From a virus: 64,000 nucleotides of DNA. Both the position numbers and the translations under genes were made by a program. Below are positions 14,104 through 61,727 of this stretch, piece after piece. Below the pieces are notes generated by a model. It was not told the origin of the DNA, ran no database searches, and saw only the letters and a program-made list of their open reading frames with translations. How positions within the stretch are numbered: position 1 is the first letter of the stretch; each line of letters starts with the position of its first letter. The DNA is taken from IMG/VR virus record IMGVR_UViG_3300035660_000007, positions 1 through 64,000 of that record. The stretch is one strand, 5' to 3'.

Positions 14104-14123
14104 CCTGGAATATACCGGCGAGG
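14104..14123 (+). promoter_or_regulatory. Late motif copy before prohead protease
   Basis: The exact 20-mer CCTGGAATATACCGGCGAGG, identical to the copy before the portal gene. The ATG of the protease follows TATACC by 16 nt. Confidence 0.65.
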
Positions 14124-28733: not shown

Positions 28734-28863
28734 AGCGGGCTGCGCCAAGCGGAACAGGCGGCGATGCATGTGCAATCCCTGGAATCGGATGGGGAATGCC
28801 GCGGAGAGGCGCAAGCCGCGCGATCGGCTGACGAAGGCTGAAACAGAGGCGATATGCTGCTGA
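28711..28863 (+). CDS. Small basic Cys-rich protein (50 aa)
   Basis: ATG at 28711 with AAAGGGG upstream. It reads MPKAKRHRAGCAKRNRRRCM, then CNPWNRMGN, and ends ICC. It overlaps both neighbours by about 10-23 nt in other frames, as coupled phage genes do. Its size, basic charge and clustered cysteines suggest nucleic-acid or zinc binding. Confidence 0.6.
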   Translation: MPKAKRHRAGCAKRNRRRCMCNPWNRMGNAAERRKPRDRLTKAETEAICC

Positions 28864-29579: not shown

Positions 29580-29625
29580 GGAAGAGCATGAAAATGCCCT
29601 GGGAATTCGCAGGGAGACTGCTCTG

Positions 29626-30201
29626 ATGCGAAGAGAGCATGCTGATATGACTAAACCGATAGCGCAGGGGCTGTGGGAATCGCTGTCGGAAGCGGAGCAG
29701 GCAGCGCTGGAAGGTACCGCGCGAGAATTCAACGAGCATCTATCCCGGACGGGGGCTGCAGCGGCGCAGTCGGTAAAGGACTTCGGCATCGCATACGACC
29801 ACGCCCTCGCCGCCGTGCCCGTCCGCCGCTGGGGCGCGACTCTGCGGGAAGACATTCGCGCAGATGTTCACGCGCATCTCATCCCGCCCGGCCTGGTCCT
29901 CCTACATTGTGATTTTGTCGGCGACCGGGTATGGTGCGCGCCTGCTTGGCATCTCCCGGCCCGCGCTGCCTGGGCAGTCTGGAGGGCCTCGATGTGGTGG
30001 AGAGGGCGCTTCTGGCGCGCCCTTTACCGCGTCGGGCTGATAGATATTCCGCCCGGGATCCGATACGGGTGGCGGCATGTAACTCTTCGGGGCGTGCGCG
30101 CAAGGCGGGCTGAACGGGCGGCGCGACGGCATAGTGGTGTTCGCGGAGATGGTAAGACGGGGGCACCAGGGGGTTCCCAGAAGCCGCCGAACATGGTATA
30201 A
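29626..30201 (+). CDS. Hypothetical protein with amphipathic Trp-rich end
   Basis: The start at 29626 overlaps the stop of a 12-codon frame (29588-29626, MKMPWEFAGRLL) that may act as a leader peptide; ATG 29647 is the alternative. The N-terminal half is helical (LWESLSEAEQAALEGTAREF). The C-terminal half is Trp/Arg-rich (AWAVWRASMWWRGRFWRALY). No family is recognised. Confidence 0.55.
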   Translation: MRREHADMTKPIAQGLWESLSEAEQAALEGTAREFNEHLSRTGAAAAQSVKDFGIAYDHALAAVPVRRWGATLREDIRADVHAHLIPPGLVLLHCDFVGDRVWCAPAWHLPARAAWAVWRASMWWRGRFWRALYRVGLIDIPPGIRYGWRHVTLRGVRARRAERAARRHSGVRGDGKTGAPGGSQKPPNMV

Positions 30202-30247
30202 GACCCTTAGGGCTGCCTCGACGGTACGCCCCACAAGGAGGCTGGAA

Positions 30248-30745
30248 ATGAGATTGAAGAGGTTTGGATTGGTGATCGGGGCCCTCGCCCTGGTCGCCGC
30301 GGTGGCGTCCGGGACCGCTTTCGCCACCATCTACTACCTGCATCACCACGGCTCCTACTACTTCACCGACATCGCGCCGACCGACTCGGCCGGCCACCAC
30401 GTCGGCTACGCGGTCGAGGCTGGCACGACGGCCGGCTGCGGCCCGCAGCGGTTCTGCCCCGGCGACTACGTGACGCGCAGGCAGATGGTGGTGTTCCTGC
30501 AACGGCAGGCGGTCAATGAGTTCATGATCAATTACCTGCTGTTCGACTGGATCTTCCACGACGGGCGGTACTTCGGCGAGACGGCCCTGCACACCGGGCG
30601 GATCACGCAGGCGCAATTCGACGAGTATCTGGAGCATTACCAGTGGGCGATCGGACGGCTGGAGGCCCTGCTGCCGCCAGCCGCTCCGTCCGCGCAGGCC
30701 GGCCGCATGCTGGAGGCGCTGCGGCAGGCGGAGGAGGCAAGATGA
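30248..30745 (+). CDS. Exported SLH-domain-like protein
   Basis: A 165-residue protein with AAGGAGG before the ATG and an N-terminal export signal (RLKRFGLVIGALALVAAVAS). Residues about 38-88 match the S-layer homology pattern: YYFTDIAPTDSAGHHVGYAV, GTTAGCGPQRFCPGDYVTRR, QMVVFLQR. SLH domains anchor proteins to cell-wall polymers. A phage copy suggests a product displayed on the host envelope. The C-terminal part is helical and Ala-rich. Confidence 0.78.
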   Translation: MRLKRFGLVIGALALVAAVASGTAFATIYYLHHHGSYYFTDIAPTDSAGHHVGYAVEAGTTAGCGPQRFCPGDYVTRRQMVVFLQRQAVNEFMINYLLFDWIFHDGRYFGETALHTGRITQAQFDEYLEHYQWAIGRLEALLPPAAPSAQAGRMLEALRQAEEAR

Positions 30746-31770
30746 AGGTCCGCATCCTGGGCCTAGTCAAGTACGCCAGCAACGGGGACCTCGCCACCGT
30801 GCTGCGACAGCGCGAGCGCTTCGACCGTGCACTAGCCTTCTGGGACGCGGCGCCCGATTTCCTGCCGCCCGACGGCGTCGCCATCTACGACATGCGGGAG
30901 GATTCGCGGGTCCATTCGTGGGCCGAGGGTGCCGAGGCGGTCGCGCGCGACTTCCGGCCGACCCACGTCGTGATCTGGGGCCACGACGAGCCGTGGAATC
31001 AGGCTTTCAGGGATGCCGTCGCGGGGGCAGCGCCGCAAGCCCGCATGGTCTATGTGGAGGTGGGCCTCTGGCCCGGCACGTTCTGGTGCGCGGCTTTCAT
31101 GCACTACGTGGAGCCGGAGCGCATACGGGGATCGTGGGTGCCGGGGATGGCTTCGACGCCCGACAACTTGCAGCGGCTCGCAACCTACACGGATGCGATC
31201 TACGGGCCGGACGGAGCGCGCGCGGGGGCGCGGGATGATTTCGTGCTGCTCGTGCCCCAGTATCCCGATGGTCGCGCCCCGTTCTATGCGACCGGGAGGC
31301 ATTGCGACATCGCGTGGATGATGCAGTCAATTGCACCCTGCATCCCGGACGGAACGGAAGCGTGGCTGAAGGTGCATCCGCTCGACCTGACGGACTCGTG
31401 GATGCGCGAGGCCGCGCGACTGGACGTCCACGTCCTGCCGCGCGAGGAGCCGATCTATCCGCTCGTTGCGCGCGCGGCTGCGGTCGTGACGGTCAACAGC
31501 GTCGTCGGGCTGCATGCAATGCTAGCAGGAACGCCCGTGCTTGCGCTCGGTCAGGCATATTACGCGGGGATAGCGGGGGTGAGGATGCGGGCGCTCGAGC
31601 CGCAACGGAGGTCGCAGGCGCTGAACGTTCGCGAACCCGGCGGCGACTTCGATCGGTGGCTGCGGGAGATCGGGCCGGCCCTGAAGGAGACGCTGGCGAC
31701 GGAGGTGGATCCGGCCACCGCCGACGACTTCTGCTGCCATACGATGCGGTTCTGCGAGGCCGTGCGGTGA
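30742..31770 (+). CDS. Capsule polysaccharide (Kps-like) glycosyltransferase
   Basis: A 342-residue protein, ATG overlapping the previous stop. It resembles the Kdo-transferase fold of capsule proteins: VLLVPQYPDGRAPF, AWLKVHPLDLTDSW, PIYPLVARAAAVVTVNSVVG and LHAMLAGTPVLALGQAYY. The TVNSxxGLxAxxxGxPV segment is the clearest landmark. It probably builds a surface glycan linker or modifies capsule. Confidence 0.7.
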   Translation: MKVRILGLVKYASNGDLATVLRQRERFDRALAFWDAAPDFLPPDGVAIYDMREDSRVHSWAEGAEAVARDFRPTHVVIWGHDEPWNQAFRDAVAGAAPQARMVYVEVGLWPGTFWCAAFMHYVEPERIRGSWVPGMASTPDNLQRLATYTDAIYGPDGARAGARDDFVLLVPQYPDGRAPFYATGRHCDIAWMMQSIAPCIPDGTEAWLKVHPLDLTDSWMREAARLDVHVLPREEPIYPLVARAAAVVTVNSVVGLHAMLAGTPVLALGQAYYAGIAGVRMRALEPQRRSQALNVREPGGDFDRWLREIGPALKETLATEVDPATADDFCCHTMRFCEAVR

Positions 31771-32105
31771 AGGTCTACATCGCTGGCCTCTACACGCCGC
31801 GCGGCGGCGACGAGGAGGCGCGGCTGCGGAACGTGGCGCAGGCGCGCGAGGCCGGAGTGGCCCTGATGAAGGCTGGGCACACCCCGTTCTGCCCGCACAC
31901 GATGACGGACGGGTGGGAGGCGGAGGGGATAGCATACAAGGAGTTCATGCGCGTCGGGCTGGAGTGGGTCGCCGTCTGCGACGCGCTGCTGCTCCTGCCG
32001 GGGTGGAGGACTAGCCCGGGGGCCCGCGCGGAATGCGCGCTGGCGAAACGCATAGGCCTGCGCATCTGCACGTGGAACAAGTTCTGCAGCACAGGGAGGT
32101 TGTGA
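31767..32105 (+). CDS. DUF4406-like nucleoside deoxyribosyltransferase-fold protein
   Basis: GTG start at 31767 overlaps the previous stop. The 112-residue protein starts KVYIAGLYTPRGGDEEARLR, then ALMKAGHTPFCPHTM, LEWVAVCDALLLLPGW and SPGARAECALAKRIGL. This is the 2'-deoxyribosyltransferase-like pattern of DUF4406 with a catalytic-type Glu in AEC. Whether it acts on nucleotides or sugars is unknown. Confidence 0.78.
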   Translation: MKVYIAGLYTPRGGDEEARLRNVAQAREAGVALMKAGHTPFCPHTMTDGWEAEGIAYKEFMRVGLEWVAVCDALLLLPGWRTSPGARAECALAKRIGLRICTWNKFCSTGRL

Positions 32106-32893
32106 TGACGATCCGCGAGGCTTTCAATCTGGTGGATGATTGCCAGGCGAAGCGTATAGGTCGCTGGGGGCAGCCCCACCCACTGGACCCGGACGGGTAT
32201 ACGACCGCGAGACTAATGCACATCGCGCGCGTCCTGTCGATGCTCCCGCCCGGTCCGCTCTCCGACTACTGCTGCGGGGACGGGATCGTGTCCGCGCTGG
32301 CGACCATGATGGGATGGCGCGCGGACTTCGGCGTGGACATCCGCCCGCAGCCGATGGCGGCGGGCGTCTTCGCCCGCGCGGTGGAGGTGGCCGACGTGGA
32401 GGACCCGAAGGCCTGGCATGCGTTCCCGCCGAACGAGGCCAGCGAAACCGCCGTCTTCACCGAGGCCCTCGAGCACATGGCGTTCCACCCCTTGCCGACC
32501 CTGCGGCGGATCACCTCCCGTTCGGATTCGCTGCTCCTGACTACGCCGAACGCGCCGTGCTTCGACGAGCCGGGGATCCACATGGGCAAGCCGGTCTCGG
32601 CGCTGCCGCGCCGTGCGGCGCGCTCCGTCCGGCCCCCTCTGCGCGTGCCGGGCGAGGTCATGGGGCCGGGCGACCACGGCGAGCACACGAGGTTCTACAC
32701 AGCCGAGGAGGTGGCCAACCTGCTCCTGATGGCGAAGATGGGGGAATGGGAGGATGTCGGCGTCTGGATGATCGTGGGCGGACGATGGCTGCTGGCCGTG
32801 GCGGGCGCGGCCTATGCGCCGGTGCACGAATGCTACGAGAAGGAACTGAAGGCCGGCGTCCCGAACGACTTCATGCTGGCGAAGGCGTGGTAA
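32105..32893 (+). CDS. SAM-dependent methyltransferase
   Basis: TGATG overlap with the previous gene. 262 residues with a class I methyltransferase core: GPLSDYCCGDGIVSALATMM (motif I-like CCGDG), FGVDIRPQPM, TAVFTEALEHMAFHPL and LLLTTPNAPCFD. The substrate is probably small or glycan-borne given the neighbours. Confidence 0.75.
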   Translation: MTIREAFNLVDDCQAKRIGRWGQPHPLDPDGYTTARLMHIARVLSMLPPGPLSDYCCGDGIVSALATMMGWRADFGVDIRPQPMAAGVFARAVEVADVEDPKAWHAFPPNEASETAVFTEALEHMAFHPLPTLRRITSRSDSLLLTTPNAPCFDEPGIHMGKPVSALPRRAARSVRPPLRVPGEVMGPGDHGEHTRFYTAEEVANLLLMAKMGEWEDVGVWMIVGGRWLLAVAGAAYAPVHECYEKELKAGVPNDFMLAKAW

Positions 32894-33038
32894 TTGAAAT
32901 GGGCGGGGGCGGCGCTGGTGCGGCGACATGGCAGAAAACAGCGACAGGAGAGCGCGCCAGGCTACGCCTGCTTCCTGGTTCGCTGAACCATGCGCAGCGG
33001 CCGGCCCGCCCCCGCTCACCTGATTAGAGGAGGCTGGA

Positions 33039-33935
33039 ATGCCGAAGGATACGCAAAACGCAGCGGGCCCTCCCCTACCGCCGACGCGTGCCGTGGACAT
33101 CGGGCGCATAGCGTTGGAGAGGCTGATGTTCAGCCACCGGATGTTGGTTAGCCCGGATATGCTACGATGGGGGGGCGGCGTCGATGAATTGCGCGACCTG
33201 CTCGAGCGCTTGCACGCGCGGCTAATCGGGAGGGAGGACGAGCCGTCGCAGACCATCGCCGCGCAGATCGAGGGCTTGCTGTTCGGCCCCCTCCGCGTGA
33301 CGTACGACCACATGGCGCTGGACCTCCGGGCCTACATCATGGCCGAGCGCGTGCGACAGTTCCGGTGGCCAGCCGGATGGTGGCAGGCGCTGAAGGAGAG
33401 GGCCTATCGGATGCGCATCGTGCCGCGCCGCGTGAAGACGCGGTGGCCGGTGGCGTGGTGCTGGGTGAATATAAACCGGTGCTTCCCGGACATCGCCATG
33501 CCTGGCCACACGGGTTACATCATTGCGACTGGCCCGCTATCGGCGGCACCCTACGGCGTCCAGGGCGAAGCCCTCCGCGAGGGAGAGACATGCGCGGAGG
33601 GCGGCCGCAGGGCCGAGGCGGTCGCGCCCCCGCAACCCGGACTAACGAAGCGCATAGTGCGCGTCTACTGCATAGACTTCGCGCGCGCCGGCATCTGGTC
33701 GCTGTCGCTCTGCTGCGCGAGTTGCCACGAAGACCTGGCATCGGGTTTCGGCATGAGCGAGAGGGAGGTGCCGGAGGACTTGGTGCCACCGCACGCCCGG
33801 GGCGTCGCCGAGGTCTGCTGCGAGCTGAATCGCGCGCTCGATCAGCGGGTGCTGTCGGCGGAAGAATGGAAGCGCGTCCTCGCCGGGTTGCAGCCAGCGG
33901 ACGCCGGGGAGGGCGGGGATGCCGCGGCCGATTGA
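33039..33935 (+). CDS. Hypothetical protein, 298 aa
   Basis: GAGGAGG precedes the ATG. Helical N-terminal region (VDELRDLLERLHARLIG), a central Trp/Arg-rich portion (WWQALKERAYRMRIVPRRVK), and a C-terminal part with CCASCHEDLASGF and AEVCCELNRALD. The cysteines may bind metal. No family is recognised. 32894-33038 holds nothing convincing. Confidence 0.6.
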   Translation: MPKDTQNAAGPPLPPTRAVDIGRIALERLMFSHRMLVSPDMLRWGGGVDELRDLLERLHARLIGREDEPSQTIAAQIEGLLFGPLRVTYDHMALDLRAYIMAERVRQFRWPAGWWQALKERAYRMRIVPRRVKTRWPVAWCWVNINRCFPDIAMPGHTGYIIATGPLSAAPYGVQGEALREGETCAEGGRRAEAVAPPQPGLTKRIVRVYCIDFARAGIWSLSLCCASCHEDLASGFGMSEREVPEDLVPPHARGVAEVCCELNRALDQRVLSAEEWKRVLAGLQPADAGEGGDAAAD

Positions 33936-34644
33936 CAGACTAGGCGGATTCAGCGCCGAAGAGTGGCGGCGGTACCTCGCCGTCGAGGCCCAGGAGTTCA
34001 GCGCCGGCAGCCAGTGGCCAGAGAACCAGGCGATCCAGAAGGCGCTGGCTGATGAACTGCTGTTCCCCATGCTCCCGCCGGGGCCAGTGCTTGACTTGGG
34101 TTGTGGCGACGGTTGGCTGGTTCAATACCTGCGCCCGCTAGGTTGGGACGCATGGGGCATCACGATCAACGAGGCGGAGGTGCGCGTGGCGCGGGAGCGC
34201 CGCGGAGGCGGATTGGGATGGCCCTATGTGGTGCTGGGTGACGCGCACCGCATCCCCTTCGGCGACGGTGAGTTCGGTGCCGTCTATGCGCGCGAATGCC
34301 TGGAACATTGCATCGCGCCTCACATCGTATTATGGGAAGCCAATCGGGTGCTGCGGGATGGCGGCTCATTGCTGCTGCACACGCCGTCGGAGCAGTGGAC
34401 TGAGGAGACTTCGCATAGATGGGTGCCGACCTGGCAGCAAGGCCGGGACATGCTGGCGAAGACGGGCTTCGACATGGTGCGCGAGATGGTCATTTCGGAC
34501 CATGCCGGGGCCGCGCTCCGCGAGCGACAGGCCGAGGATGGTGAAGATTGCTACCACATCTGGCTCGCCCGCCAGGCCCGCCGCATGCCCGCGTCCTGGG
34601 AGCGCGGGCCATGGTTCCCCTACATGGCGAAGGGCGGACCGTGA
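33919..34644 (+). CDS. SAM-dependent methyltransferase (type 11)
   Basis: 241 residues. Motif I is GPVLDLGCGDGWLVQYL, followed by WGITINEAEVRVARERR, VVLGDAHRIPFGDGEFGAVY and ARECLEHC. This is a standard class I small-molecule methyltransferase layout. It overlaps both neighbours. It may methylate a sugar or lipid in the glycan pathway. Confidence 0.85.
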   Translation: MPRPIDRLGGFSAEEWRRYLAVEAQEFSAGSQWPENQAIQKALADELLFPMLPPGPVLDLGCGDGWLVQYLRPLGWDAWGITINEAEVRVARERRGGGLGWPYVVLGDAHRIPFGDGEFGAVYARECLEHCIAPHIVLWEANRVLRDGGSLLLHTPSEQWTEETSHRWVPTWQQGRDMLAKTGFDMVREMVISDHAGAALRERQAEDGEDCYHIWLARQARRMPASWERGPWFPYMAKGGP

Positions 34645-34844
34645 ACAAAGGCCTCTATCCGGAACCGGAGGGATATCGAGGCGCATCCATGCGCGCACGG
34701 GACATCATCGGGCATGCCCTGCGTGACTGCCGCGCTCTGTCGGCAGCGGAGGAAGCCGAACTCGAGCGTCTACACACTGTCATGCTCGGGTATCGTTGCC
34801 GATGCAGCCTGATACCACACGAGGATTGCGCCGATGGGCATTGA
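34641..34844 (+). CDS. Hypothetical protein, 67 aa
   Basis: GTG at 34641 overlaps the methyltransferase stop (GTGA). A helical centre (HALRDCRALSAAEEAELERL) is followed by a Cys-containing end (YRCRCSLIPHEDC). It overlaps the B12/radical SAM gene by 11 nt. Unknown function. Confidence 0.55.
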   Translation: MNKGLYPEPEGYRGASMRARDIIGHALRDCRALSAAEEAELERLHTVMLGYRCRCSLIPHEDCADGH

Positions 34845-36036
34845 GATCCTCGTTGTAAACGCCCCCGGCACTGCGCAGCCCCAGGACGCCTGGTACTGCC
34901 CGCCTTTGAATCTTCTCTGCCTCGCCGCCTATGCCCGCGCCCAGGGCATCGGCGTCGAGGTGGTGGACGGGAACGCCGTGGGCTGGGACGGCGTGATGGA
35001 GGCGCTCGACCGCCGCCCCCAGGCCGTCGGCATCACCATGCTGACGTGGGGTAGGCACGCGGCGCTGGAGGTCCTGCGGCGCGCCAAGGCGCGCGGGGCG
35101 CGCACGATAGCGGGCGGAGCGCACGCCTCGGCCTGCAGCCGCCAGATACTCGAGCACTACCCGTTCGTGGATGCGATCTGCGTGGGCGAGGGGGAGGCCG
35201 CGCTACTTTCATGGTTGCGCGGCGGGCCAGCGGAGGCGGCCCCGCTCGACCTAGCGGAGTTAGCGATGCCAGCCTGGGACCTCCTCTACACTCAGGTGCC
35301 GCCCGACCGGTATCCGTCCTGGCCGACCGCGAACCTGCACTTCTCCCGCGGCTGCCCGGGCCAGTGCTCGTTCTGCCATTCTTGGGTCGCATGGGGCGGA
35401 TGGCGGTCGCGATCCCCCGTGGCCGTCGCTAACGAGATGCTGATGCTCGCCGAGCGCTGGGGGTTCCGCTCCTTCGAGTTCCACGACGACTGCTTCACCG
35501 GCAGGGCGGAGAACGTCCACGACCTCTGCTTCGTGTTCAAGCAGATGCTGGGGGCGGCACCAGTCTCCTGGGGTTGCACCACGCGCGCCGACCTGGTGGA
35601 CGACGCGCTGCTAGCCCATATGCGCGCGACCGGCTGCACGCAGGTCGCGCTAGGGCTGGAGAGCGGAAGCAACAAGATCCTCGAGCTTGCGAAGAAGGGC
35701 GTGACGGTGCGCCAGAATGTGGAGGGCGGGCTGGCCGTCAAGCGCGCCGGCCTGATCCTCACGGCCCTGGTGATGGTGGGGAACCCGGGCGAAACGGACG
35801 AGACGATAGAGCAGACGGCGGCGATGCTGCGCGCCATACAACCCGACAAGATCGGGACGGTCGGGCGCGTCTGGGTGTTCCCGGCGACCCGGCTGTGGGC
35901 GCGGCTCAAGCGCGAGCATCGCTTCACGGAGGATTACTGGCTGGAGCAGCCGGGCGAGCCCCCGACCTGGCCGGCCGCAGACGAGGCGACGCTGGCGCGG
36001 TGGACCGCACGCATCCACGACTGGCGGCGCGAATGA
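34834..36036 (+). CDS. B12-binding domain radical SAM enzyme
   Basis: A 400-residue protein. Residues 1-130 have the cobalamin-binding-type Rossmann domain (ILVVNAPG, PQAVGITML, ARTIAGGAHASA, FVDAICVGEGE). Residues about 165-370 are a radical SAM barrel with the cluster motif C174-x3-C178-x2-C181 (SRGCPGQCSFCH), EFHDDCFTG, VALGLESGSNKILELAKKGV and GNPGETDETIEQT. Such enzymes methylate or rearrange unreactive carbons. Its place among glycosyl- and methyltransferases suggests tailoring of a sugar or lipid. This class is uncommon in phages. Confidence 0.9.
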   Translation: MGIEILVVNAPGTAQPQDAWYCPPLNLLCLAAYARAQGIGVEVVDGNAVGWDGVMEALDRRPQAVGITMLTWGRHAALEVLRRAKARGARTIAGGAHASACSRQILEHYPFVDAICVGEGEAALLSWLRGGPAEAAPLDLAELAMPAWDLLYTQVPPDRYPSWPTANLHFSRGCPGQCSFCHSWVAWGGWRSRSPVAVANEMLMLAERWGFRSFEFHDDCFTGRAENVHDLCFVFKQMLGAAPVSWGCTTRADLVDDALLAHMRATGCTQVALGLESGSNKILELAKKGVTVRQNVEGGLAVKRAGLILTALVMVGNPGETDETIEQTAAMLRAIQPDKIGTVGRVWVFPATRLWARLKREHRFTEDYWLEQPGEPPTWPAADEATLARWTARIHDWRRE

Positions 36037-36556: not shown

Positions 36557-36577
36557 GCCTGGAATATACCAGCGGAG
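36557..36577 (+). promoter_or_regulatory. Late motif copy before tail-region glycosyltransferase
   Basis: Contains CCTGGAATATACCAGCGGAG. The ATG at 36584 follows TATACC by 13 nt. The copy marks the boundary where the tail genes resume after the glycan insertion. Confidence 0.62.
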
Positions 36578-39457: not shown

Positions 39458-39679
39458 TCAGTGAAGTATCAAGTTCAGCAATAGCCAGACCGCCAACAGA
39501 ATGATCCCCAGCGAGATCAGCCCCAACCCGACTATCTGGCAGTCGAGGCAGAAGCACTCCACTGACGTCATGTGCTGCCGGATCGCCATCTTCTCCTCCC
39601 GCGTCATCCTCGACAGGCGGGCGGCGCGCTCGGCGGGATCGAGGTCGTCGAACGGCGAGGCCTTTTCAGATTTCGACAT
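39458..39679 (-). CDS. Small membrane protein of the minus-strand cassette
   Basis: A 73-residue protein starting MSKSEKASPFDD, with AAAGGAGAACGAC upstream. It has a charged N-terminal half (DPAERAARLSRMTREEKMAI), a CFCLDC motif, and one long hydrophobic helix (IVGLGLISLGIILLAVWLLL). It lies downstream of the HNH gene and overlaps it by 76 nt. As a membrane protein carried opposite to the late genes it looks like a moron. Confidence 0.7.
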   Translation of the reverse strand: MSKSEKASPFDDLDPAERAARLSRMTREEKMAIRQHMTSVECFCLDCQIVGLGLISLGIILLAVWLLLNLILH

Positions 39680-40548
39680 GTCGTTCTCCTTTCCCGGCCC
39701 CGCCGCGCGGGGCCTGGGTTCGCTGTTTTTCGACTGGCCACTACTAGGTCGAAGGATTGCACCATTGGCAGGGGCGGTGCGGTGGCGCTGAAGCACTTCT
39801 GCAAAACCCGATCCTGCTTCTTAGAATTGCACCCCTGACAGGACGGCACGACGTTGCCTCTCATATGCGGGCCGCCTTTGCTAATGGGTGCGAAATGGTC
39901 TTGCGTCAGCTTTACGTCTCCCCTCCCGCAGTAGGCGCATCTCTGCCCAAAGCGCTCCTTTATTGTCTGCCATCCCTCGTTATCCAGCCGGGCTTCTATA
40001 GGGGTTGCATGGAGGCGCGCTCGATACAGGACTGCTTGGCGTCGCTGATAAGCTCGGCCCTCTGGCGTTTGGACCCACTTGCGCTCATATTCGCGACTAC
40101 GGGCCTTCACCTCCGGTCGCTGGCGCCGAGCACGTCTGCGGGCGGTGACATCTGGGCGATGTGACCAGGCACGTTTATAATCCCGTTTACGGGCCTTCAC
40201 GTCTGGCTGCTGATTGCGAACCCGCGCTTGTTCGGCCCGTCGTTTCCCTACATCTGGCCGGTGCCTCCAATCTCGATATAATTTGGCATGTCGCTCCTTG
40301 ATTCCGGGGCGCCGATAATAGGCGTAGCCGACTGGGACCCTGCAATTCTTACAGGATGGATACCGCCCATAGAGATGCTGACGGCTCCGGTGAAAGGCAT
40401 TCAGAGGAAGCCATTCTTTGCATTTTGTGCACTGCTTATTGCCGGGAACGGACCCGCGCTTGTCATGGCTCCCGACGGGGGCTTTAGGGCGCGAATCCGC
40501 CCCGGCATCTACTACAAAATCCTGGTTGGGCAATGTATCGGTTGCCAT
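39604..40548 (-). CDS. HNH endonuclease
   Basis: A 314-residue protein with an N-terminal zinc pair (QCTKCKEWLPLNAFHRSRQH, CKNC) and a long basic repeat region of RP-x-V-x-ARxR units. The HNH domain follows (RCAYCGRGDVKLTQDHFAPI, HMRGNVVPSCQGCNSKKQDR). The last about 60 residues after the HNH are of doubtful quality and overlap the small membrane gene. It stands opposite to the tail genes between the chaperone and tape measure, like a homing endonuclease. DNA here is less GC-rich. Confidence 0.85.
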   Translation of the reverse strand: MATDTLPNQDFVVDAGADSRPKAPVGSHDKRGSVPGNKQCTKCKEWLPLNAFHRSRQHLYGRYPSCKNCRVPVGYAYYRRPGIKERHAKLYRDWRHRPDVGKRRAEQARVRNQQPDVKARKRDYKRAWSHRPDVTARRRARRQRPEVKARSREYERKWVQTPEGRAYQRRQAVLYRARLHATPIEARLDNEGWQTIKERFGQRCAYCGRGDVKLTQDHFAPISKGGPHMRGNVVPSCQGCNSKKQDRVLQKCFSATAPPLPMVQSFDLVVASRKTANPGPARRGRERRTTCRNLKRPRRSTTSIPPSAPPACRG

Positions 40549-40556
40549 GACACCCT

Positions 40557-40585
40557 ATTCTACCGCAAATCGCCCGGTCTGTAAA
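40557..40585 (-). promoter_or_regulatory. Sigma70-like promoter of the HNH gene, near-leaderless
   Basis: On the minus strand TTTACA (40585-40580), 17 nt, TAGAAT (40562-40557). The ATG of the HNH gene begins 8 nt after the -10 element, so the leader is 0-2 nt. This matches the leaderless arrangement at 1229. Confidence 0.78.
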
Positions 40586-40593
40586 GCCCCCCT

Positions 40594-40613
40594 GCCTGGA
40601 ATATACCGACGAG
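40594..40613 (+). promoter_or_regulatory. Late motif copy before tape measure
   Basis: Contains GCCTGGAATATACCGACGAG. It lies 26 nt (from TATACC) before the tape measure ATG and back-to-back with the minus-strand promoter of the HNH gene, forming a divergent promoter pair. Confidence 0.62.
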
Positions 40614-50872: not shown

Positions 50873-52090
50873 ATGACCACGCCCAATTCGGCGACGCAGC
50901 AGTTCCTGCTGGGCCTCGCCGCGGCCAACCAGCCCGTAACGCTAAGCGCCGACATCGACTGGCCCTGGGTTATGGCTCAGGCCCCCTACCTCTACGTCGA
51001 CGGCATACTGGCCGTGCGCTGTGCGAGGGGCGAACTGGCTGGCGTCCCCGACTGGGTCCGCATGGACTGCGCGAAGACGCCCACCGTATGGAACGAGCAT
51101 ATGCGGGACTGGGATGGGATCGCCGCCGCGGCGATTGCGGCGCTCGACGAGTCGGGGCTGCCGTACGTCGTGCTCGGCTACCCGTTCGAGTATAGGACAT
51201 TCAGGCCGGAATGCCACATGCGCCCGGCCACCGACCTCGACGTGGCGGTGGATGCGCCGATCAAGCAGGTGGTGGAGGCGCTGGCCCCGCACGGATTTAC
51301 CGCAGGGCTGGTCAGGAAGAACGGCCAACGGCAGGTCCTAACTCTCGGCGAGGCCCTCAAGCGGCCCGTGCATATGCTCCACGAAAGCCGTCTGCTGCTC
51401 CACCGCGGGCGACCGTGCCTCGAGGTGTACTGCGCGCCCTGCCGTGCGCTCGGCGTACCCACCGCGTGGTTGGTCGAGGGGCGCGTGCGCGAGACATGCA
51501 GCGGGCTGTCCGCCTGGATCCCCGGCCCGGCCCGCGAGTTCTTCTCGTCCTCCTGGAGGGCCGGGCAGATCGTCGAGGGCGGCAGGACGCCCTTCTACAT
51601 CTTCGGGTGCCTGCGGAACATCGCGCAGACCATTCCATGCGCATCTGCCGACGTCCAGGATGCGATCCTGGAGGCCGTGGGGACTGCATGGGCATCCGTG
51701 GCGGACGACCGGTGGATGAACGGCCTGTGGCGCGGCCACTGGTCGAGCGCGCGGAACATCCAGGTGATCTGGGCGTGGTTGGGCGAAGCCTACGTGGAAC
51801 TGGAGGGATTGGGCGCGGAATTCCGCGGGATGCTTGATGCCGCCCTGCCCGCTCACTGCGGCCCGTTCCTCTCGGACTCGGGGGGCGCGCCCAACTGCAA
51901 CCTCCTGTCCACCATCGTCTCGCCTCCGCCCTGGCAGGAGGCCGTCTTCGACCTGCATACGCTCCAGGATTGGGTCGCGCGCGGATATGCGGACGCGCCC
52001 GTGCTGCACCAGGGCGGCTGGGAGGTCGTGCGGGACCAGTTGCCGCCCGGTCTGCAGCCGGAGAAGGCGATCACGGCGGAGCAGACATGA
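50873..52090 (+). CDS. Nucleotidyltransferase-fold protein (NTP_transf_5-like)
   Basis: 405 residues. The centre contains YVVLGYPFEYRTFRPECHMR followed by PATDLDVAVDAPIKQVVEA; the R-x4-DxD arrangement is that of uncharacterised nucleotidyltransferases found in surface polysaccharide loci. The C-terminal half is helical and Trp-rich. It begins the second glycan cassette. Confidence 0.72.
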   Translation: MTTPNSATQQFLLGLAAANQPVTLSADIDWPWVMAQAPYLYVDGILAVRCARGELAGVPDWVRMDCAKTPTVWNEHMRDWDGIAAAAIAALDESGLPYVVLGYPFEYRTFRPECHMRPATDLDVAVDAPIKQVVEALAPHGFTAGLVRKNGQRQVLTLGEALKRPVHMLHESRLLLHRGRPCLEVYCAPCRALGVPTAWLVEGRVRETCSGLSAWIPGPAREFFSSSWRAGQIVEGGRTPFYIFGCLRNIAQTIPCASADVQDAILEAVGTAWASVADDRWMNGLWRGHWSSARNIQVIWAWLGEAYVELEGLGAEFRGMLDAALPAHCGPFLSDSGGAPNCNLLSTIVSPPPWQEAVFDLHTLQDWVARGYADAPVLHQGGWEVVRDQLPPGLQPEKAITAEQT

Positions 52091-53244
52091 TCTCGCTGGT
52101 GACATGGACGCTGAACGAGGCCGCGACGCTGCCGCGCATGGTCGAGTCGTTCGCGGGTCTCTACGACGACCTGGTCGTGCTGGACAGCGGGAGCGGCGAC
52201 GGGACGCAGGACGTGGCGCGGGGCCTCGGGGCCAAGGTGTTCGATTACGCGGACCCCGAGCACCGCTGCCCCTGCCACCCCGTTATGGACTGGGCGAGGA
52301 TGCAGAACGAGGCGGCGGCGCACGCGGCGGGCCCGGTCGTGATGGCCCTGGATGCGGACCTGCTGCTGACGGGCGAGGATGGCCGACCGCTGGCGCCGAG
52401 CGAACGCAACGTGCTACGGCAGCGGCTCGAGGCATGCGCGGAGGCACCGCACGGTCGAGGGACGCTCGCCATCACCGTCCTCGACCACTATCCCGACTTC
52501 GACACCAGCGCCCCTCCCATCTGCGACCGCCGCGCGGTGCTGGCATATCGCCCCGCGGACGACGGCACGTGGCAGGGGCGCGCGCGGCCCGTTCTTTCGG
52601 ATGGGTCGCGTTGGCAGCATACGGACCCCTGGCCCTATGCTGCGCTGCACCACCATCTGCACCGGGGAGACGAGGCGGGGCGGGGGCGGGCGCGCCGCGA
52701 ATATCTGCTGGCCCTTGCCTGCTACGGCGGCACGGCCGGCGAACTCGAGTGGAACATGCTGCACTGGCCAGCCGACGACATGATCTACGCCGCGCCCTAC
52801 CAGCAAGCGCGCGTCGCGGCCCTCGTTGCGATGTGCAATGGGTCGGTGCTGGAGGTAGGGTGCGGCACGGGCTACATCGCGCGCCGCATCGTCCAGGCGG
52901 GCCACGCCGTCACGGGGCTGGATGCCAGCCTGATCGCCGTCGAGCGAGCGCGCATAGCCGGGGTCGAGGCCGTCGAGGGCTGGGCCGAGAACATCCCGTT
53001 CGATGACCATTCATTCGACACCGTACTGCTGGCCGACGTACTGGAGCACCTGGTGGACCCCGGCAGGGCGCTGTCGGAGGCCTGCCGGGTCGCGCGCGCG
53101 CTGGTGCTGGCGAGCCTCCCGACCTTCCCCCCGCACGCCGCCGACCCCATGCACCGGTGGATCGCCGACTCATTCGTCATCACGGGCGCGCAGGTGCATC
53201 CCGTCGGCGAGTTCGTGCTGCTGGCACTGAGGCCCAAGCCATGA
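52087..53244 (+). CDS. GT2 glycosyltransferase - methyltransferase fusion
   Basis: 385 residues. Residues 1-235 are a GT2 enzyme: SLVTWTLNEAATLPRMVESF, VVLDSGSGDGTQDVA, and DxD at Asp89/Asp91 (VMALDADLLL). Residues about 250-385 are a class I methyltransferase: VLEVGCGTGYIARRIVQAGH, VTGLDASLIAVERAR, ENIPFDDHSFDTVLLADVLE. One protein could add a sugar and methylate it, capping the chain. ATGA overlaps on both sides. Confidence 0.88.
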   Translation: MISLVTWTLNEAATLPRMVESFAGLYDDLVVLDSGSGDGTQDVARGLGAKVFDYADPEHRCPCHPVMDWARMQNEAAAHAAGPVVMALDADLLLTGEDGRPLAPSERNVLRQRLEACAEAPHGRGTLAITVLDHYPDFDTSAPPICDRRAVLAYRPADDGTWQGRARPVLSDGSRWQHTDPWPYAALHHHLHRGDEAGRGRARREYLLALACYGGTAGELEWNMLHWPADDMIYAAPYQQARVAALVAMCNGSVLEVGCGTGYIARRIVQAGHAVTGLDASLIAVERARIAGVEAVEGWAENIPFDDHSFDTVLLADVLEHLVDPGRALSEACRVARALVLASLPTFPPHAADPMHRWIADSFVITGAQVHPVGEFVLLALRPKP

Positions 53245-54182
53245 TCGAACGCCGCACTGACCTGACCGTGGCGACGTTCGGCATCGGACGGTGGCCCGGC
53301 AACAAAGAATTGGCGCTGGCCTTCCTCGCAGACCTGCGACTGGTCGGCGACGAGGTCGCGTACTTCGGCGTGGGCGACGAGGACGGGGCGGTCGAGGCGG
53401 TCCGGGAGGCGGGCGGCCACGCATGGGCCTTCGACTGGTACCCCATCCCCCACTTCTACTGCCAGCAGATGATCGAGGCGGTCGAGACGCTGCCGCCGAC
53501 GAACGTGCTGTACCTGGATTTGTGGGAGAGGCCGTCGCGCGGCCTGGCGGAGGAGATGCCGCGCCTCGTGGCGTCCGCCTCCCCTTACCGCCTGATCCCC
53601 CGCCTGTGGTATCAGGCGGATGGGGAGTTCATGGGCGTCTGCGGCGCGGCCCTGCGGATGTGGCGGCGCGGCAGCGTCTGGCACACCGGCAGGTTCGGGG
53701 CGGGGATAGAGCCGCGCGACCGCGCCGAATGGGACCTGGCCGCGACCGCGTGGCACCCGATCATCGGCTACCAGCCGACCGACCACGCTCACCTCGCGCA
53801 GTATCCGAGGGTTCGATTTGCCAAGTGCGTCCACGACATGCGCGCGCGCCGCACCGACCTCGCCAACATCCGGCACCTGCAGGGCGTCTACCCGCAGGTC
53901 TTCACGCCCGACGTGGTGCGGTGGATCGTGGACGTGCCGTACGCGGACGAGGCGCTCCTGGTGCCCGGGACGCCGGAGCACGAGCGAATGCTACGCATCG
54001 TGCTGGCCGACCCGGACCCTGATGATGCCGTGCCGGAGGACTGGCGCGACATCGTGGAGCAGGTGAAGGGTGGCGCGTTCGCCTTCGACTACCCGCGGCC
54101 GCCGGAGGGATGGACGCCGTGGCCGGCGGCGCTCGAGCATCTCATCTACCGGGGCGCACTGCGCGAGGGAGGGAGCGCGTGA
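53241..54182 (+). CDS. Probable glycan-related protein, 313 aa
   Basis: Starts MIERRTDLTVATFGIGRWPG at an ATG overlapping the previous stop. It has a Rossmann-like opening and LYLDLWERPSRGLAEEMPRL, RLIPRLWYQADGEFMGVCGA, HPIIGYQPTDHAHL. The overall alternation resembles a GT-A-type transferase, with no clear DxD. Context among transferases suggests glycan work. Confidence 0.55.
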   Translation: MIERRTDLTVATFGIGRWPGNKELALAFLADLRLVGDEVAYFGVGDEDGAVEAVREAGGHAWAFDWYPIPHFYCQQMIEAVETLPPTNVLYLDLWERPSRGLAEEMPRLVASASPYRLIPRLWYQADGEFMGVCGAALRMWRRGSVWHTGRFGAGIEPRDRAEWDLAATAWHPIIGYQPTDHAHLAQYPRVRFAKCVHDMRARRTDLANIRHLQGVYPQVFTPDVVRWIVDVPYADEALLVPGTPEHERMLRIVLADPDPDDAVPEDWRDIVEQVKGGAFAFDYPRPPEGWTPWPAALEHLIYRGALREGGSA

Positions 54183-55417
54183 CCGATCGCCCCGAGCTGT
54201 TGTTCCGCGGCCTAATCGAGGGGCCGGCCGGCTACGACCGCCTGAACCGGCGCCTGCTCGAGGGGCTGCACCTCGCGGGCGTGCGCGTCCGCCTCTGGCC
54301 CGACCGGCAGCCGGTCGAGAACAGGATCGCGCTGGAGGCGGCGGATCGCCGACTCATAGATTCATGCCTGCACACTAAGGTCAGCGACCGCGCGCCCTTC
54401 CTGCACTCGACGATCGCCCACGGCTTCTACGCGGACGTGGCACGCTACCGCATCGGCCTGACGATGTGGGAGGCGCACGACACTATCCCGCCGGAGTTCG
54501 CCGAGCGCTGCAACCGCATGCACGAGATCTGGGTACCGTCCGAGCAGTGCCAGCGGACCTTCGCGGAAGGCGGGGTCAAGGTGCCGATCCTCCGCATGCC
54601 GCTGGGCGTGGACCTGGAGCAGTTCAACCCGAACGTCGAACCCGTCTGGAATATCCTGGCCGGCACCAGGGGGTTCAGGGCGCTGTGCGTGGTCGGGCAC
54701 AGCCACCGCAAGGGGTTCGCGGAGCTGCTGCGCGCCTGGTATACGGCCTTCGACGGGTCGGACGACGCCACCCTGATCTACAAGGGTTACTTCGCTGGCA
54801 GTGCGTCGCGGTCAGCGCAGGCGCGGGTGATGTCGGACCTGCGGGCGGTCAAGGCCGAATTCGACCCCGGCCCGAACGGCCACGCCCACGTCGTGGCGCT
54901 GCCGGAGCTGCTGGACGAGGCCGACATGCCCGGCCTCTACGCCTCCTGCGATCTCTTCGCGCTGATGACGCTGGGCGAGGGATTCTGCCTGCCGGCCCTG
55001 GAGGCGGCGGCCTGCGGGCGGCCCAGCCTGATTACGGCCGCCGGGGGCCATATGGACTATCTGCGGGACGATGCGGACCGCCCGGACGAGGCCAACGCCT
55101 TCCTGGTGCCGCCGCGGGGATGGGAGGCCGCCAGGGACGACGTGGTGGACGCCTGCCATCTCTACAAGGGCCTGCGGTTCCCCATCATAGACGTGGCGCG
55201 TGCCGCGGCGACGTTGCGGTCGTGCTACGAGAACCGCGACGAGGTGCTGCGGCGCGGGCGGCGGGCCCGCCGGACGGTGGAGGAGATGGGCTTGACCTGG
55301 CGGGCGCTGGGCGCGCGGGCGGCTGCCCGCGTCGCGGACGTGAACGCAGGGTTGCTGCTCGCCGGGGCCGCCACGCGCATCGAGCGCATGGCACTCACGA
55401 AAGAGCAGCTCCCATGA
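54179..55417 (+). CDS. Glycosyltransferase family 4
   Basis: GTG start at 54179 (GTGA overlap). 412 residues, GT-B fold: HEIWVPSEQCQRTFAEGGVK, RMPLGVDLEQFNPN, FRALCVVGHSHRKGFAELLR, and the donor-site E-x7-E region ALMTLGEGFCLPALEAAACG. A retaining transferase using nucleotide sugars. Last transferase of cassette 2. Confidence 0.92.
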   Translation: MTDRPELLFRGLIEGPAGYDRLNRRLLEGLHLAGVRVRLWPDRQPVENRIALEAADRRLIDSCLHTKVSDRAPFLHSTIAHGFYADVARYRIGLTMWEAHDTIPPEFAERCNRMHEIWVPSEQCQRTFAEGGVKVPILRMPLGVDLEQFNPNVEPVWNILAGTRGFRALCVVGHSHRKGFAELLRAWYTAFDGSDDATLIYKGYFAGSASRSAQARVMSDLRAVKAEFDPGPNGHAHVVALPELLDEADMPGLYASCDLFALMTLGEGFCLPALEAAACGRPSLITAAGGHMDYLRDDADRPDEANAFLVPPRGWEAARDDVVDACHLYKGLRFPIIDVARAAATLRSCYENRDEVLRRGRRARRTVEEMGLTWRALGARAAARVADVNAGLLLAGAATRIERMALTKEQLP

Positions 55418-55905
55418 ACGAAAGCGGGTGCACCGTCCGCGGGCTGGTCGCGCGCTTGGCCGCGAAGCGGCCGCGGATGCGCCTACGCGCGCGTCCCGGC
55501 CCCCCGCTCTCGCCCGACGTCCCTTTCGCGGCGGTACTGCGCCTCATGGGGTCGGAGTTCCGCCCGATTGCCATGCGGCTCGAGCCGCATATGCTCCACA
55601 CGGACGACCTCGCGCAGGTCGGGGCCGTCGAACTCCTGGAGGCCTACCCGGACGCCCGCCTGCCGCTGGATTGGGTACCCCCGGCGGACTGGCTCGACCT
55701 CGGGCCGCTCCTGCCCGTCAAGCCGTACCTGCGGAGCCGCGTGACGGGGGCGATGCGGCAGTATCTGCGCGACAAGGCGTTCCTGATCCGGTCGCCGGAG
55801 GAGATGCACGCCCCGCGGCCCGACTGCAGGGTCTTCACCGATGTGCCGCCGGGGGACCTGCGGGAGGCAGGCGTGGACTGGTTCGGCGGCGAGCCAGACA
55901 CCTAA
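55414..55905 (+). CDS. Sigma region-2-like protein (candidate late sigma factor)
   Basis: 163 residues, ATGA overlap with the GT4 gene. Residues about 45-131 follow sigma70 region 2: a helix LRLMGSEFRPIAMRL, then DDLAQVGAVELLEA (64-77, like the DDLxQxGxxxLxxA core-binding helix of region 2.1-2.2), then PYLRSRVTGAMRQYLRDKAF and LIRSPEEM (104-131, like regions 2.3-2.4 that melt and read the -10). No region 4 helix-turn-helix is present, so it would recognise only -10-like DNA. It lies directly before a copy of the late motif. The family call is by pattern, not a search. Confidence 0.68.
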   Translation: MNESGCTVRGLVARLAAKRPRMRLRARPGPPLSPDVPFAAVLRLMGSEFRPIAMRLEPHMLHTDDLAQVGAVELLEAYPDARLPLDWVPPADWLDLGPLLPVKPYLRSRVTGAMRQYLRDKAFLIRSPEEMHAPRPDCRVFTDVPPGDLREAGVDWFGGEPDT

Positions 55906-55923
55906 CCTGGAATAGACCTGCGG
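55905..55923 (+). promoter_or_regulatory. Variant late motif before holin-like gene
   Basis: ACCTGGAATAGACCTGCGG differs from the consensus by TATACC to TAGACC and in the tail. It starts at the stop codon of the sigma-like gene and precedes the holin-like gene by about 30 nt. Confidence 0.45.
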
Positions 55924-56620: not shown

Positions 56621-56669
56621 GCGGGCCGCCTTTCGCGCCAGGATGGTCCAGGCTGGGCCGTTCGGGCGC

Positions 56670-56690
56670 GGGCGGGGAATCAGTCGGCCG
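56670..56690 (-). other. Shared 3' flanking element, copy B
   Basis: Contains GGAATCAGTCGGCCG; 20 of 21 bases match 951-971. It lies 62 nt downstream of the stop of the minus-strand ASCH-HTH gene, with a GCGC-rich hairpin between, in the convergent intergenic region. Confidence 0.45.
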
Positions 56691-56728
56691 GGGCGCTTCG
56701 CGCGCGCTACGGCCAGCGCAGCGGGCAG

Positions 56729-56751: not shown

Positions 56752-57282
56752 TCAGCCTTCCCGTTCAGGTTCGACGACCACGTCGCCCATGAGCCCCAGC
56801 GCCTCCCGCAACCGCTCAACGCCTGTGCGAACCAGGTAACAGGCGTAGTTCACGGAGATACCCATGCGTTGCGCAGTATCCGTGAATGAATAACCGGCGG
56901 CACAGAGTGCCAACGCCCTCTTGCGCTTGCGGGCGGCAGCCGACTCTGCCTCGAACTCTATCCGCCAGCACCGCTCGCGGAAGGCGGTCGGCCCTGCCAA
57001 GGCACTGTAGTAGCCTATGAAGTCCGACCAGGTGGCGAACCCTTCCTTGTGCGCCTCGTTAGTCAGTTCGGGATTCGTGCAGAGATGGCCGGGATAAGCC
57101 TCGTAGCGGACAGCCAGAATCCGTAGGAAAGCGAACGGCTCGGCGAAGGGTGCGATGCGCGCCTCTACCTCCATCCCAGGATGCAGGCGTTTCCGCTTCG
57201 ACCGGCGGCGCGTTACGGTCTTCACGCCCTCGCATATCTTGTCGGCCATCGCGTCGCGGAACAGAATGAAAGTGCGGCTCAT
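56752..57282 (-). CDS. ASCH-like domain with C-terminal helix-turn-helix
   Basis: Start MSRTFILFRDAMADKICEGV at 57282, GGAGG upstream. The first about 115 residues are ASCH-like (KTVTRRRSKRKRLHPGMEVE, FAFLRILAVRYEAY, ERCWRIEFE), the version found in phage proteins that start with a K-TxTRR segment. The last 45 residues form a helix-turn-helix (GYSFTDTAQRMGISVNYACY). It could bind RNA or modified nucleotides and DNA. A second ASCH gene lies at 1242-1682. Confidence 0.75.
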   Translation of the reverse strand: MSRTFILFRDAMADKICEGVKTVTRRRSKRKRLHPGMEVEARIAPFAEPFAFLRILAVRYEAYPGHLCTNPELTNEAHKEGFATWSDFIGYYSALAGPTAFRERCWRIEFEAESAAARKRKRALALCAAGYSFTDTAQRMGISVNYACYLVRTGVERLREALGLMGDVVVEPEREG

Positions 57283-57338
57283 CCCGCCTCCATCAGCGCC
57301 GCCGCGCCCCAGACCAGGATTTGCACGAGGGCTGTCAT
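57279..57338 (-). CDS. Possible 19-residue coupled mini-ORF
   Basis: MTALVQILVWGAAALMEAG. It overlaps the stop of the upstream gene (ATGA) and the start of the downstream gene (ATGA), so it bridges translation. It is hydrophobic enough for a membrane peptide. It may be only a coupling device carrying the GGAGGCGGG ribosome-binding site. Confidence 0.38.
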   Translation of the reverse strand: MTALVQILVWGAAALMEAG

Positions 57339-57562
57339 GGCCGCCCCATCCACCTGTCAATCGCGTCGTCTATGTTATCCAAAGCCGCGTTCTGTTTTTC
57401 GGTTACGTGTTCGTGCTCTTCAATCCAGCCAGCCATTGACTCCAGCGTTGCCTGCACTGACACCGCAAACTCCTCGGCCCGCTCCGGCAAGTCGTCTAGT
57501 TTGCGCAGCAGGTTTTCGGCGTCAGCCAGAGCATCTTCCCAGCCGCAGTCGTTACACATCAT
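57335..57562 (-). CDS. Small acidic coiled-coil protein
   Basis: ATG at 57562 overlaps the previous stop. 75 residues starting MMCNDCGWEDALADAENLLR with a CxxC pair, then a helical acidic remainder (VTEKQNAALDNIDDAIDRWM). The same frame is open upstream but Cys/Arg-rich and overlaps the DUF3307-like gene, so the short form is preferred. Confidence 0.62.
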   Translation of the reverse strand: MMCNDCGWEDALADAENLLRKLDDLPERAEEFAVSVQATLESMAGWIEEHEHVTEKQNAALDNIDDAIDRWMGRP

Positions 57563-60631: not shown

Positions 60632-61032
60632 CCCTCACCCTGCCCGCGCAGTTCGCTCATAGCATGGCCCCCTTGCCCTGCCAAGCCGAGGGGAAGTCGC
60701 TCACGCGCCATCTTCTCCAGCCCACTACGCAATTGGTCAAACAACTGCAAGACGTCGTGCACGTGCACCCCGTCGTCATAGTGCTGGTTCACGACCAACT
60801 TTGCTGAACTCGGCCACCATTCGACCCGCAACGAGCCTCTCGTAAAAACCCAATGGTGCCCGCCGTTCGAGATTCGCAAGCCCAAGCCAGCGGCCCTACA
60901 CCATGCCCTGACAATCTCACGCGCCTCCAGCGCAGCCTGCCACCGCCGTTCATGCCGAAGAGCAGGCGTTTCTCCGCCATCAAACGGCACCAGGCAACTG
61001 CGTCCTGCGCTGCGTCTATCGTGCTTGCTCAC
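60628..61032 (-). CDS. Hypothetical protein, 134 aa
   Basis: GTG at 61032 overlaps the previous stop (GTGA). Contains ALEAREIVRAWCRAAGLGLR, GGHHWVFTRGSLRVEWWPSS and VVNQHYDDGVHVHDVLQLFD. Small alpha/beta protein with a WW-type strand. Unknown. Confidence 0.65.
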   Translation of the reverse strand: MSKHDRRSAGRSCLVPFDGGETPALRHERRWQAALEAREIVRAWCRAAGLGLRISNGGHHWVFTRGSLRVEWWPSSAKLVVNQHYDDGVHVHDVLQLFDQLRSGLEKMARERLPLGLAGQGGHAMSELRGQGEG

Positions 61033-61727
61033 TTCGGCATCTCCATCTCGACTGCTTGCGCAGCCAGCGCTGCAAAGTCAATGGTGCTAGCCGCCCTCGC
61101 CGCCCTCGCCGCCGCCCACGCCGCCGCCCACGCCGCCCTCGCCGCCGCCCACGCCGCCGCCCCCGCCGCCCACGCCGCCGCCCACGCCGCCGCCCACGCC
61201 GCCGCTCTCGGCGCCGCCCACGCCGCCCACGCCGCCGCCCACGCCGCCCACGCCGCCGCCCCCGCCGCCTCCTCCCCGTCAGTCTGCGTTGCTCCCTTCC
61301 TCAGCAACGCCAGTATACTCTCGACGGCCTCGCGCACCGCCGAGAGGTCGGGGTCGCCCGCGTTCACAGCCGCACTGGCCAGCAGAGCGTAACGCAGTTG
61401 AACCCGCAGCCGGATGCGCTCGTCAACATACCAGGACGGCAGCGGTATCTCATGGGCGTCCCGGAGCAAATAGCAGCCTACTTTGAGCGGACTGTCAACC
61501 GCGACCTCGCCCTCAACCTCCCACGCGCGGCATTCTGGCCCATACTCACCGTCCATCGGGTCTTGCAGCAAGCCCACGTTCAGGTCGCGGTAGCAGTGCA
61601 GTAACCCGACCTCGCATAGCACTGTGCCGCGTTGCCCCTCCGGTATCTCGTGCGTCGCGCCCTCGGCCCATTGGAGGTCGCTGTGCTTGCTCTTGCCTGT
61701 CGTCGTCGTCAGTTTGTAGAGTTTCAT
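61029..61727 (-). CDS. Protein with Ala/Trp repeat tail (DUF7666-like start)
   Basis: 232 residues. The N-terminal about 140 residues read MKLYKLTTTTGKSKHSDLQW, GTVLCEVGLLHCYRDLNVGL, ECRAWEVEGEVAVDSPLKVG, a soluble module common in phage genomes. Residues about 155-215 are almost only Ala and Trp with occasional Arg, in AAW/AAAW steps. The end is VEMEMPK. The repeat would form an Ala-rich helix with a Trp face. Confidence 0.78.
   Translation of the reverse strand: MKLYKLTTTTGKSKHSDLQWAEGATHEIPEGQRGTVLCEVGLLHCYRDLNVGLLQDPMDGEYGPECRAWEVEGEVAVDSPLKVGCYLLRDAHEIPLPSWYVDERIRLRVQLRYALLASAAVNAGDPDLSAVREAVESILALLRKGATQTDGEEAAGAAAWAAWAAAWAAWAAPRAAAWAAAWAAAWAAGAAAWAAARAAWAAAWAAARAARAASTIDFAALAAQAVEMEMPK
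61090..61275 (-). repeat. GCCGCC-CACGCC microsatellite in coding DNA
   Basis: Short units GCCGCCCACGCC and GCCGCCCACGCCGCC repeat about 15 times with few changes. In the coding frame they give AAWAAAW. It is prone to slippage in multiples of three and would change helix length. Confidence 0.8.

Follow-up and report, generated by a model that had tools for sequence, protein, structure and literature searches.

The open reading frame at 55414-55905 of this viral DNA raises the question whether the phage encodes a sigma factor reduced to region 2 and whether such a protein reads the motif CCTGGAATATACCGGCG, which recurs ahead of its presumed late genes. The window, that is the whole stretch of DNA analysed, comprises bases 1-64000 of a 64,840-base IMG/VR virus record that is classed as linear and is possibly a fragment; its G+C content is 67%. 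A codon-usage gene call placed a run of plus-strand genes at ~2.9 to 56.6 kb, carrying methyltransferase, terminase, portal, protease, capsid, head-tail adaptor, tape-measure, amidase and glycosyltransferase genes. Minus-strand genes occupy both window ends and include ASCH, HTH, nuclease, methyltransferase and DHH genes. By analogy, the plus-strand set would be late and the minus-strand set early.

Several features of this layout were recorded in passing. The terminase large subunit gene (5859-8708, plus strand) carries, at about residues 228-661, a probable intein that includes a LAGLIDADG endonuclease domain. Glycosyltransferase and methyltransferase genes lie amid the structural genes of the plus strand at 25743-36036 and 50873-55417, as does a B12/radical-SAM-like protein at 34834 that was judged by eye. 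Dense tandem repeats of the CGCCGCCCACGCC type were seen at 61098-61260, inside the minus-strand gene 61029-61727. An 81-nt element occurs near the early promoters at 908-988 and just past the last late gene at 56627-56707 (plus strand); the two copies are 73% identical, both have strong RNA folds and GGAATCAGTCGGCCG is common to them.

The gene in question is the last of the plus-strand run, behind glycosyltransferase genes, and is coupled to its neighbor: the ATG at 55414 overlaps the stop codon of the preceding gene as ATGA. Its TAA stands at 55903-55905 and, by the codon-usage gene call, its coding signature is the phage's own.

55414-55905, plus strand: predicted sigma70 region-2-only protein of 163 aa, assigned from profile, shuffle and alignment evidence

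Region 2.2 was located at residues ~64-77 (DDLAQVGAVELLEA) and regions 2.3-2.4-3.0 at ~103-132, with GAMRQYLRDKAFLIRSP corresponding to region 2.4-3.0. The conserved DLxQxG of region 2.2 is represented by D65, L66, Q68 and G70. The preliminary description had equated two segments of the protein with sigma70 regions 2.1-2.4; the match to sigma70 stands, but the exact regions are 2.2 and 2.4-3.0, with region 2.1 being weak. Between regions 2.2 and 2.3, within residues ~80-100, the protein carries an insertion of ~13 residues, as judged against the FliA of MaAM05 and against region 2 of 17 IMG/VR phage sigmas. The protein ends in VDWFGGEPDT, an acidic/aromatic stretch. No region 4 was detected in the open reading frame by Pfam (Sigma70_r4) or NCBIfam, in agreement with what had been claimed.

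The Pfam Sigma70_r2 profile matched the protein with 18.7 bits (E 0.0015), which is below the curated cut-off of 24 bits. In the same library, the matching stretch of phiEco32 gp36, an experimentally proven late sigma, scored 18.3 bits (E 0.002). T4 gp55, likewise proven, scored 13.1 bits (E 0.087), with an unrelated family outranking Sigma70_r2. A six-frame scan of the whole record with Sigma70_r2 returned only two matches at E <= 1, both in this open reading frame and collinear (profile positions 12-40 at 55567-55653 and 49-69 at 55717-55779). All five NCBIfam matches are sigma factors (FliA, SigBFG, SigF, ECF); a PHROGs search gave no match. With an HMM made from 12 sigma region-2 sequences, hmmsearch gave 13.7 bits, the highest score among 20,000 shuffles being 6.3, and no independent open reading frame of the window scored near it. 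With a 66-sequence model the protein still ranked first by a smaller margin (10.5 vs 5.6). In hhalign the protein reached a probability of 54-66%; none of 300 shuffles exceeded 1.9% and none of 77 other genes 5.1%. Since gp36 and gp55 scored lower (under 1% by hhalign), the protein is closer to canonical sigma factors than the proven minimal sigmas are. Profile comparison with sigma factors, the check suggested in the preliminary description, thus bore out the assignment.

On the basis of these alignments and profiles, we are highly confident that the open reading frame encodes a sigma70-family region-2 protein. It is most improbable that the likeness is an accident in a GC-rich protein. Such a chance match would fit the score under the curated cut-off, the blank PHROGs result and the lack of relatives, but shuffles of the same composition never reached the score, the two independent halves of Sigma70_r2 occur in the correct order, and proven phage sigmas do no better on this profile.

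Structure prediction gave a compatible picture. AlphaFold2 produced a poor model from the single sequence (pLDDT 39.6), and with an 18-sequence alignment it produced region-2 helices with a core pLDDT of ~80-90. Among the 50 best PDB matches that Foldseek found for the latter model, almost all are sigma factors, the highest-ranking being SigE domain 2 (probability 0.91); no PDB match was significant by E-value (all above 0.3). Because the 18-row alignment itself consists of sigmas, the structural support for a region-2 fold is partly circular, and the model is consistent with this fold without being independent evidence. A phmmer search of PDB sequences with the protein gave chance matches only.

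No relatives of the protein or the motif, and no close relatives of the phage, were found in IMG/VR, INPHARED, PLSDB or GTDB, in searches from which near relatives were left out and in which single-sequence scans are insensitive. For the protein, viral contigs (searched with the single sequence and a two-sequence alignment), GTDB genomes, phage records and plasmids yielded just one distant phage sigma, MaAM05. The HRDY3 match turned out to be unrelated by translated sequence, and alignments pairing two sequences, with L129 as one of them, were discarded as misaligned. For the motif, viral contigs gave two matches to the exact 17-mer and 37 to a relaxed form, all single and none repeated per contig; both exact matches were judged to be due to chance, one lying inside a tail gene. 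The 80 loci with portal-protein relatives (23-31% identity) included none with a repeated motif, and Sigma70_r2 had no match in the 44 of their records that were searched. One distant portal-relative phage has a single CCTGGCATATACCGGGC 41 nt before an ORF start (L020:2853-2869, plus strand), a match with a probability of ~4% by chance. Since no relatives were found, co-variation of protein and motif could not be seen.

The preliminary description had reported a -10-like motif that occurs without a -35 element before late genes, with a variant copy at the stop of the sigma gene. Both statements hold for this sequence: six plus-strand copies stand ahead of genes, three of them exact, two with one mismatch and one with two, and the last of these starts at the base after the stop codon.

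3928-3944, plus strand: putative late motif, exact, 62 nt (start to ATG) before the ParB-like/DNA methyltransferase gene at 3990, which is followed by the gene at 5305 and the terminase gene at 5859
10203-10219, plus strand: putative late motif, exact, 25 nt before the portal-MuF gene at 10228
14104-14120, plus strand: putative late motif, exact, 29 nt before the head protease gene at 14133, with the capsid gene at 15812 next
36558-36574, plus strand: putative late motif with one mismatch (CCAGCG), 26 nt before the gene at 36584, a probable tail/connector gene
40595-40611, plus strand: putative late motif with one mismatch (CCGACG), 39 nt before the tape-measure gene at 40634
55906-55922, plus strand: variant motif CCTGGAATAGACCTGCG with two mismatches, 45 nt before the small gene at 55951 and directly behind the sigma gene
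5867-5883, minus strand: putative late motif with two mismatches, lying antisense within the beginning of the terminase gene

Allowing up to three mismatches, CCTGGAATATACCGGCG gave seven matches where 0.13 were expected, a number reached by none of 100 shuffles. Each of the six plus-strand copies is oriented with the next gene and lies 25-62 nt ahead of it, a placement for which 4.5% of positions would qualify. With a weight matrix these sites scored 27-33 bits, as compared to 14.2 for the next plus-strand site and 18.0 for the maximum of 20 random sequences, a margin that flatters the six sites because the matrix was built from them. The shuffle test is less prone to this bias, though its pattern was also derived from the sequence. 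The minus-strand copy at 5867-5883, which would be antisense to the upstream genes, scored 23.6 bits, again to be compared with the maximum of 18.0 from 20 random sequences.

In the 40 bases upstream of the six aligned plus-strand motifs no conserved -35-like block was found. A purine directly follows the 17-mer at each of the six sites (G, A, A, G, A, G). If this purine is taken as +1, the box TG-G-AATATA would lie at -15 to -7, giving an extended -10 element with an A at -11 and no T at -7, and three leaders of 8-12 nt would each start with or hold a Shine-Dalgarno-like stretch. From this anatomy we regard the motif as likely to be a late promoter. Other promoter types were considered and rejected. 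The aligned sites read GG-N9-GC instead of the GG-N10-GC of sigma54 promoters, with the second G being an A at 40595. The box AATATA without a T at -7 does not fit a host sigma70 promoter (TTGACA, TATAAT), and a T7-type reading of the late motif was likewise discarded.

The minus strand gave a different picture. A threshold of 10 of 12 matches gave five sigma70-type promoters in the window. All five lie on the minus strand and, with this gene call, between genes; on the plus strand no sigma70-type site reached 10/12. The three best are those ahead of presumed early genes, each with a TG before the -10.

2787-2815, minus strand: sigma70-type promoter TTGACT-17-TATCAT, its -10 preceded by TG, directed into minus-strand (presumed early) genes
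1236-1264, minus strand: sigma70-type promoter TTGACG-17-TATGAT with TG, before presumed early genes
799-827, minus strand: sigma70-type promoter TTGACA-17-TATCAT with TG, before presumed early genes

Because random sequences with the same dinucleotide make-up gave 0-4 matches of at least 10/12, the number of five is merely suggestive, and the argument is carried by strand and place. An HNH endonuclease gene (39604-40548, minus strand) has its own sigma70-type promoter at 40557-40585 (minus strand), which adjoins the motif of the tape-measure gene at 40595 in a back-to-back arrangement.

The combination of a sigma without region 4 and a single-element promoter is known from two phages. T4 gp55 has a region-2 homology domain and no region 4, and the T4 late promoter is limited to a -10-type element (PMC2988020, PMC7892883), in keeping with the preliminary description, which called gp55 a minimal sigma. 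The phiEco32 gp36 protein is a sigma without recognizable region 4, which uses the single element tAATGTAtA before middle/late genes; transcription starts 6-8 bp downstream of this element, and early genes, located on the opposite strand, depend on the host sigma70 (PMC8948821). What we find here matches both in having region 2 only and a single -10-type element before late genes with no -35, and phiEco32 also in its early genes of the host-sigma70 type. The Sigma70_r2 score equals that of gp36, but the protein is not an orthologue of gp36 (no pairwise similarity, BLASTP E 2.2) or of gp55 (none by BLASTP, E 11). The phiEco32 system further differs in its motif and in the 214 aa length of gp36, which is encoded among middle genes of an unrelated phage. 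T4 gp55 has gp33 and the gp45 clamp as partners, neither of which was identified in this phage, and the motif described here is longer than the T4 late promoter, with a TGn and a CCGGCG tail.

By sequence the nearest proteins are the FliA/SigB/SigF/SigG-type sigmas, such as the phage FliA-type sigma MaAM05 with 35% identity over residues 64-132, that is across regions 2.2-3.0. These share a YLRDK...I..P block with the protein but lack the ~13-residue insertion. They also carry regions 3 and 4 and read a -35 plus a -10, whereas the protein described here ends ~30 residues past region 3.0. A full-length group 1-3 or ECF sigma factor was rejected since the open reading frame has no region 4 in the same chain. 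The claim that protein and motif form an undescribed sigma-promoter pair is therefore valid for this particular pair but not for its kind (PMC2988020, PMC7892883, PMC8948821): because T4 gp55 and phiEco32 gp36 were already known, protein and motif most likely represent a new, divergent instance of a known design.

By this precedent, the phage probably turns the host RNA polymerase to its late genes, as T4 and phiEco32 do. Region 2.2 of the sigma-like protein would bind the host's core RNA polymerase at its clamp helices, and regions 2.3-2.4-3.0 would recognize and melt the single element CC-TGG-AATATA-CCGGCG-R, an extended -10-type box in which R is the probable first transcribed base and which would serve each head, tail and packaging gene block that it precedes. 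For a sigma without region 4, a -10-type element should be enough, with no need for a -35. In the proposed scheme, early minus-strand genes would be transcribed by the host's own sigma70-type holoenzyme and late plus-strand genes by core enzyme with the sigma-like protein, possibly with a coactivator; we infer this order in time. The evidence that ties the protein to the motif is circumstantial. Since the phage has one sigma-like protein and a -10-only element before its structural blocks, the pairing is plausible, and anatomy and precedent lead us to favor, with some reserve, the view that the sigma-like protein reads CCTGGAATATACCGGCG.

One difficulty, which the preliminary description left unmentioned, is that the sigma gene comes last in the late-strand cluster. 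Late regulators are normally produced earlier than late genes. No strong sigma70-type promoter for the sigma gene was found on the plus strand, and its position without a visible early promoter would mean that the protein is made late, feeding back on its own class, unless a first supply of sigma comes from a weak promoter, from leakage or from virion-carried protein.

The same difficulty would be accounted for if the motif were a late promoter read by the host polymerase with an early phage activator, or by an RNA polymerase of the phage whose gene lies beyond the record, with the region-2 protein employed elsewhere. Candidate DNA-binding proteins exist in the gene 1682-2053 of the early region, which has a weak HTH_18 match, and in the ASCH-HTH gene 56752-57360. 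Moreover, as the record is linear and possibly incomplete, another regulator or RNA polymerase may lie outside it. We nevertheless consider such a reader unlikely, because a sigma lacking region 4 is expected to need just such an extended -10 single box without a -35, and the protein is the only sigma-like one detected in the record. In addition, a PF00940 search found no T7-type RNA polymerase, although controls gave no match either, and T7-type promoters have a layout other than that of the motif.

Two further explanations concern the roles of the motif and the protein separately. The motif could be a repressor or activator binding site or a leader-RNA element instead of a core promoter, given the partial dyad of its center GGAATATACC (8 of 10 positions) and the start codons located just 25-29 nt away at three sites. 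This is quite improbable, as the conserved flanks are asymmetric, the six copies are all directed at genes and invariably followed by a purine, Shine-Dalgarno-like sequence is found in three leaders counted from that purine, and no other promoter-like sequence was found on the plus strand at these places. The protein, for its part, could be a sigma mimic that occupies the polymerase clamp helices and displaces the host sigma, causing shut-off without having promoter specificity of its own. Its best-kept parts are the core-binding surface of region 2.2 and region 2.4-3.0, and the ~13 inserted residues just before region 2.3 could hamper DNA melting. A pure competitor would not need the retained 2.3-2.4-3.0 segment (Y105 ... 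TGAMRQYLRDKAFLIRSP), however, and the late motif would be left unexplained, which makes a mimic improbable.

A sigma-like protein that reads the motif might also work with a separate partner. Bacillus subtilis RsoA is a separate sigma2-like subunit (PMC8103513). Its companion SigO supplies region 4, whereas here just a weak HTH is seen, and a split sigma of the RsoA-SigO type calls for a -35, which is not conserved with the motif.

56752-57360, minus strand: ASCH-like protein with a C-terminal HTH weakly similar to sigma region 4 (weak matches), a possible partner

Sigma70_r4 gave two weak matches in the record, to this HTH at 56803-56895 on the minus strand (13.7 bits) and inside terminase (12.8 bits), so the former has no useful margin over the latter. 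The best NCBIfam match of the HTH, to the end of a planctomycete sigma factor, is also weak (E 0.16). The gene is one of two ASCH-like genes, the other being 1242-1682 (minus strand). A two-part sigma in which the HTH of the ASCH-HTH protein holds the polymerase flap without reading DNA, like T4 gp33, is doubtful; if true, the late sigma would form a positive-feedback switch, with a protein from the early strand arming it. Among 67 phage sigma loci from IMG/VR, the proteins of L147, L203 and L204 (166-203 aa) have a strong Sigma70_r2 and no Sigma70_r4 at E <= 0.01, from which we conclude that region-2-only phage proteins recur. The phage of L203 encodes a separate Sigma70_r4 protein and may have a split sigma.

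No simpler way of redirecting bacterial RNA polymerase is known than a region-2-only sigma with a single-element promoter, of which T4 and phiEco32 are the two documented phage examples, both established by experiment. If the sigma-like protein reads CCTGGAATATACCGGCG, this phage would provide a third, unrelated case, in which region 2 is more canonical (FliA/SigF-like) and the promoter box spans 17 bp, and thus an independent test of what region 2 by itself needs for promoter selection and opening. The motif would also predict the late operons of a phage without characterized relatives.
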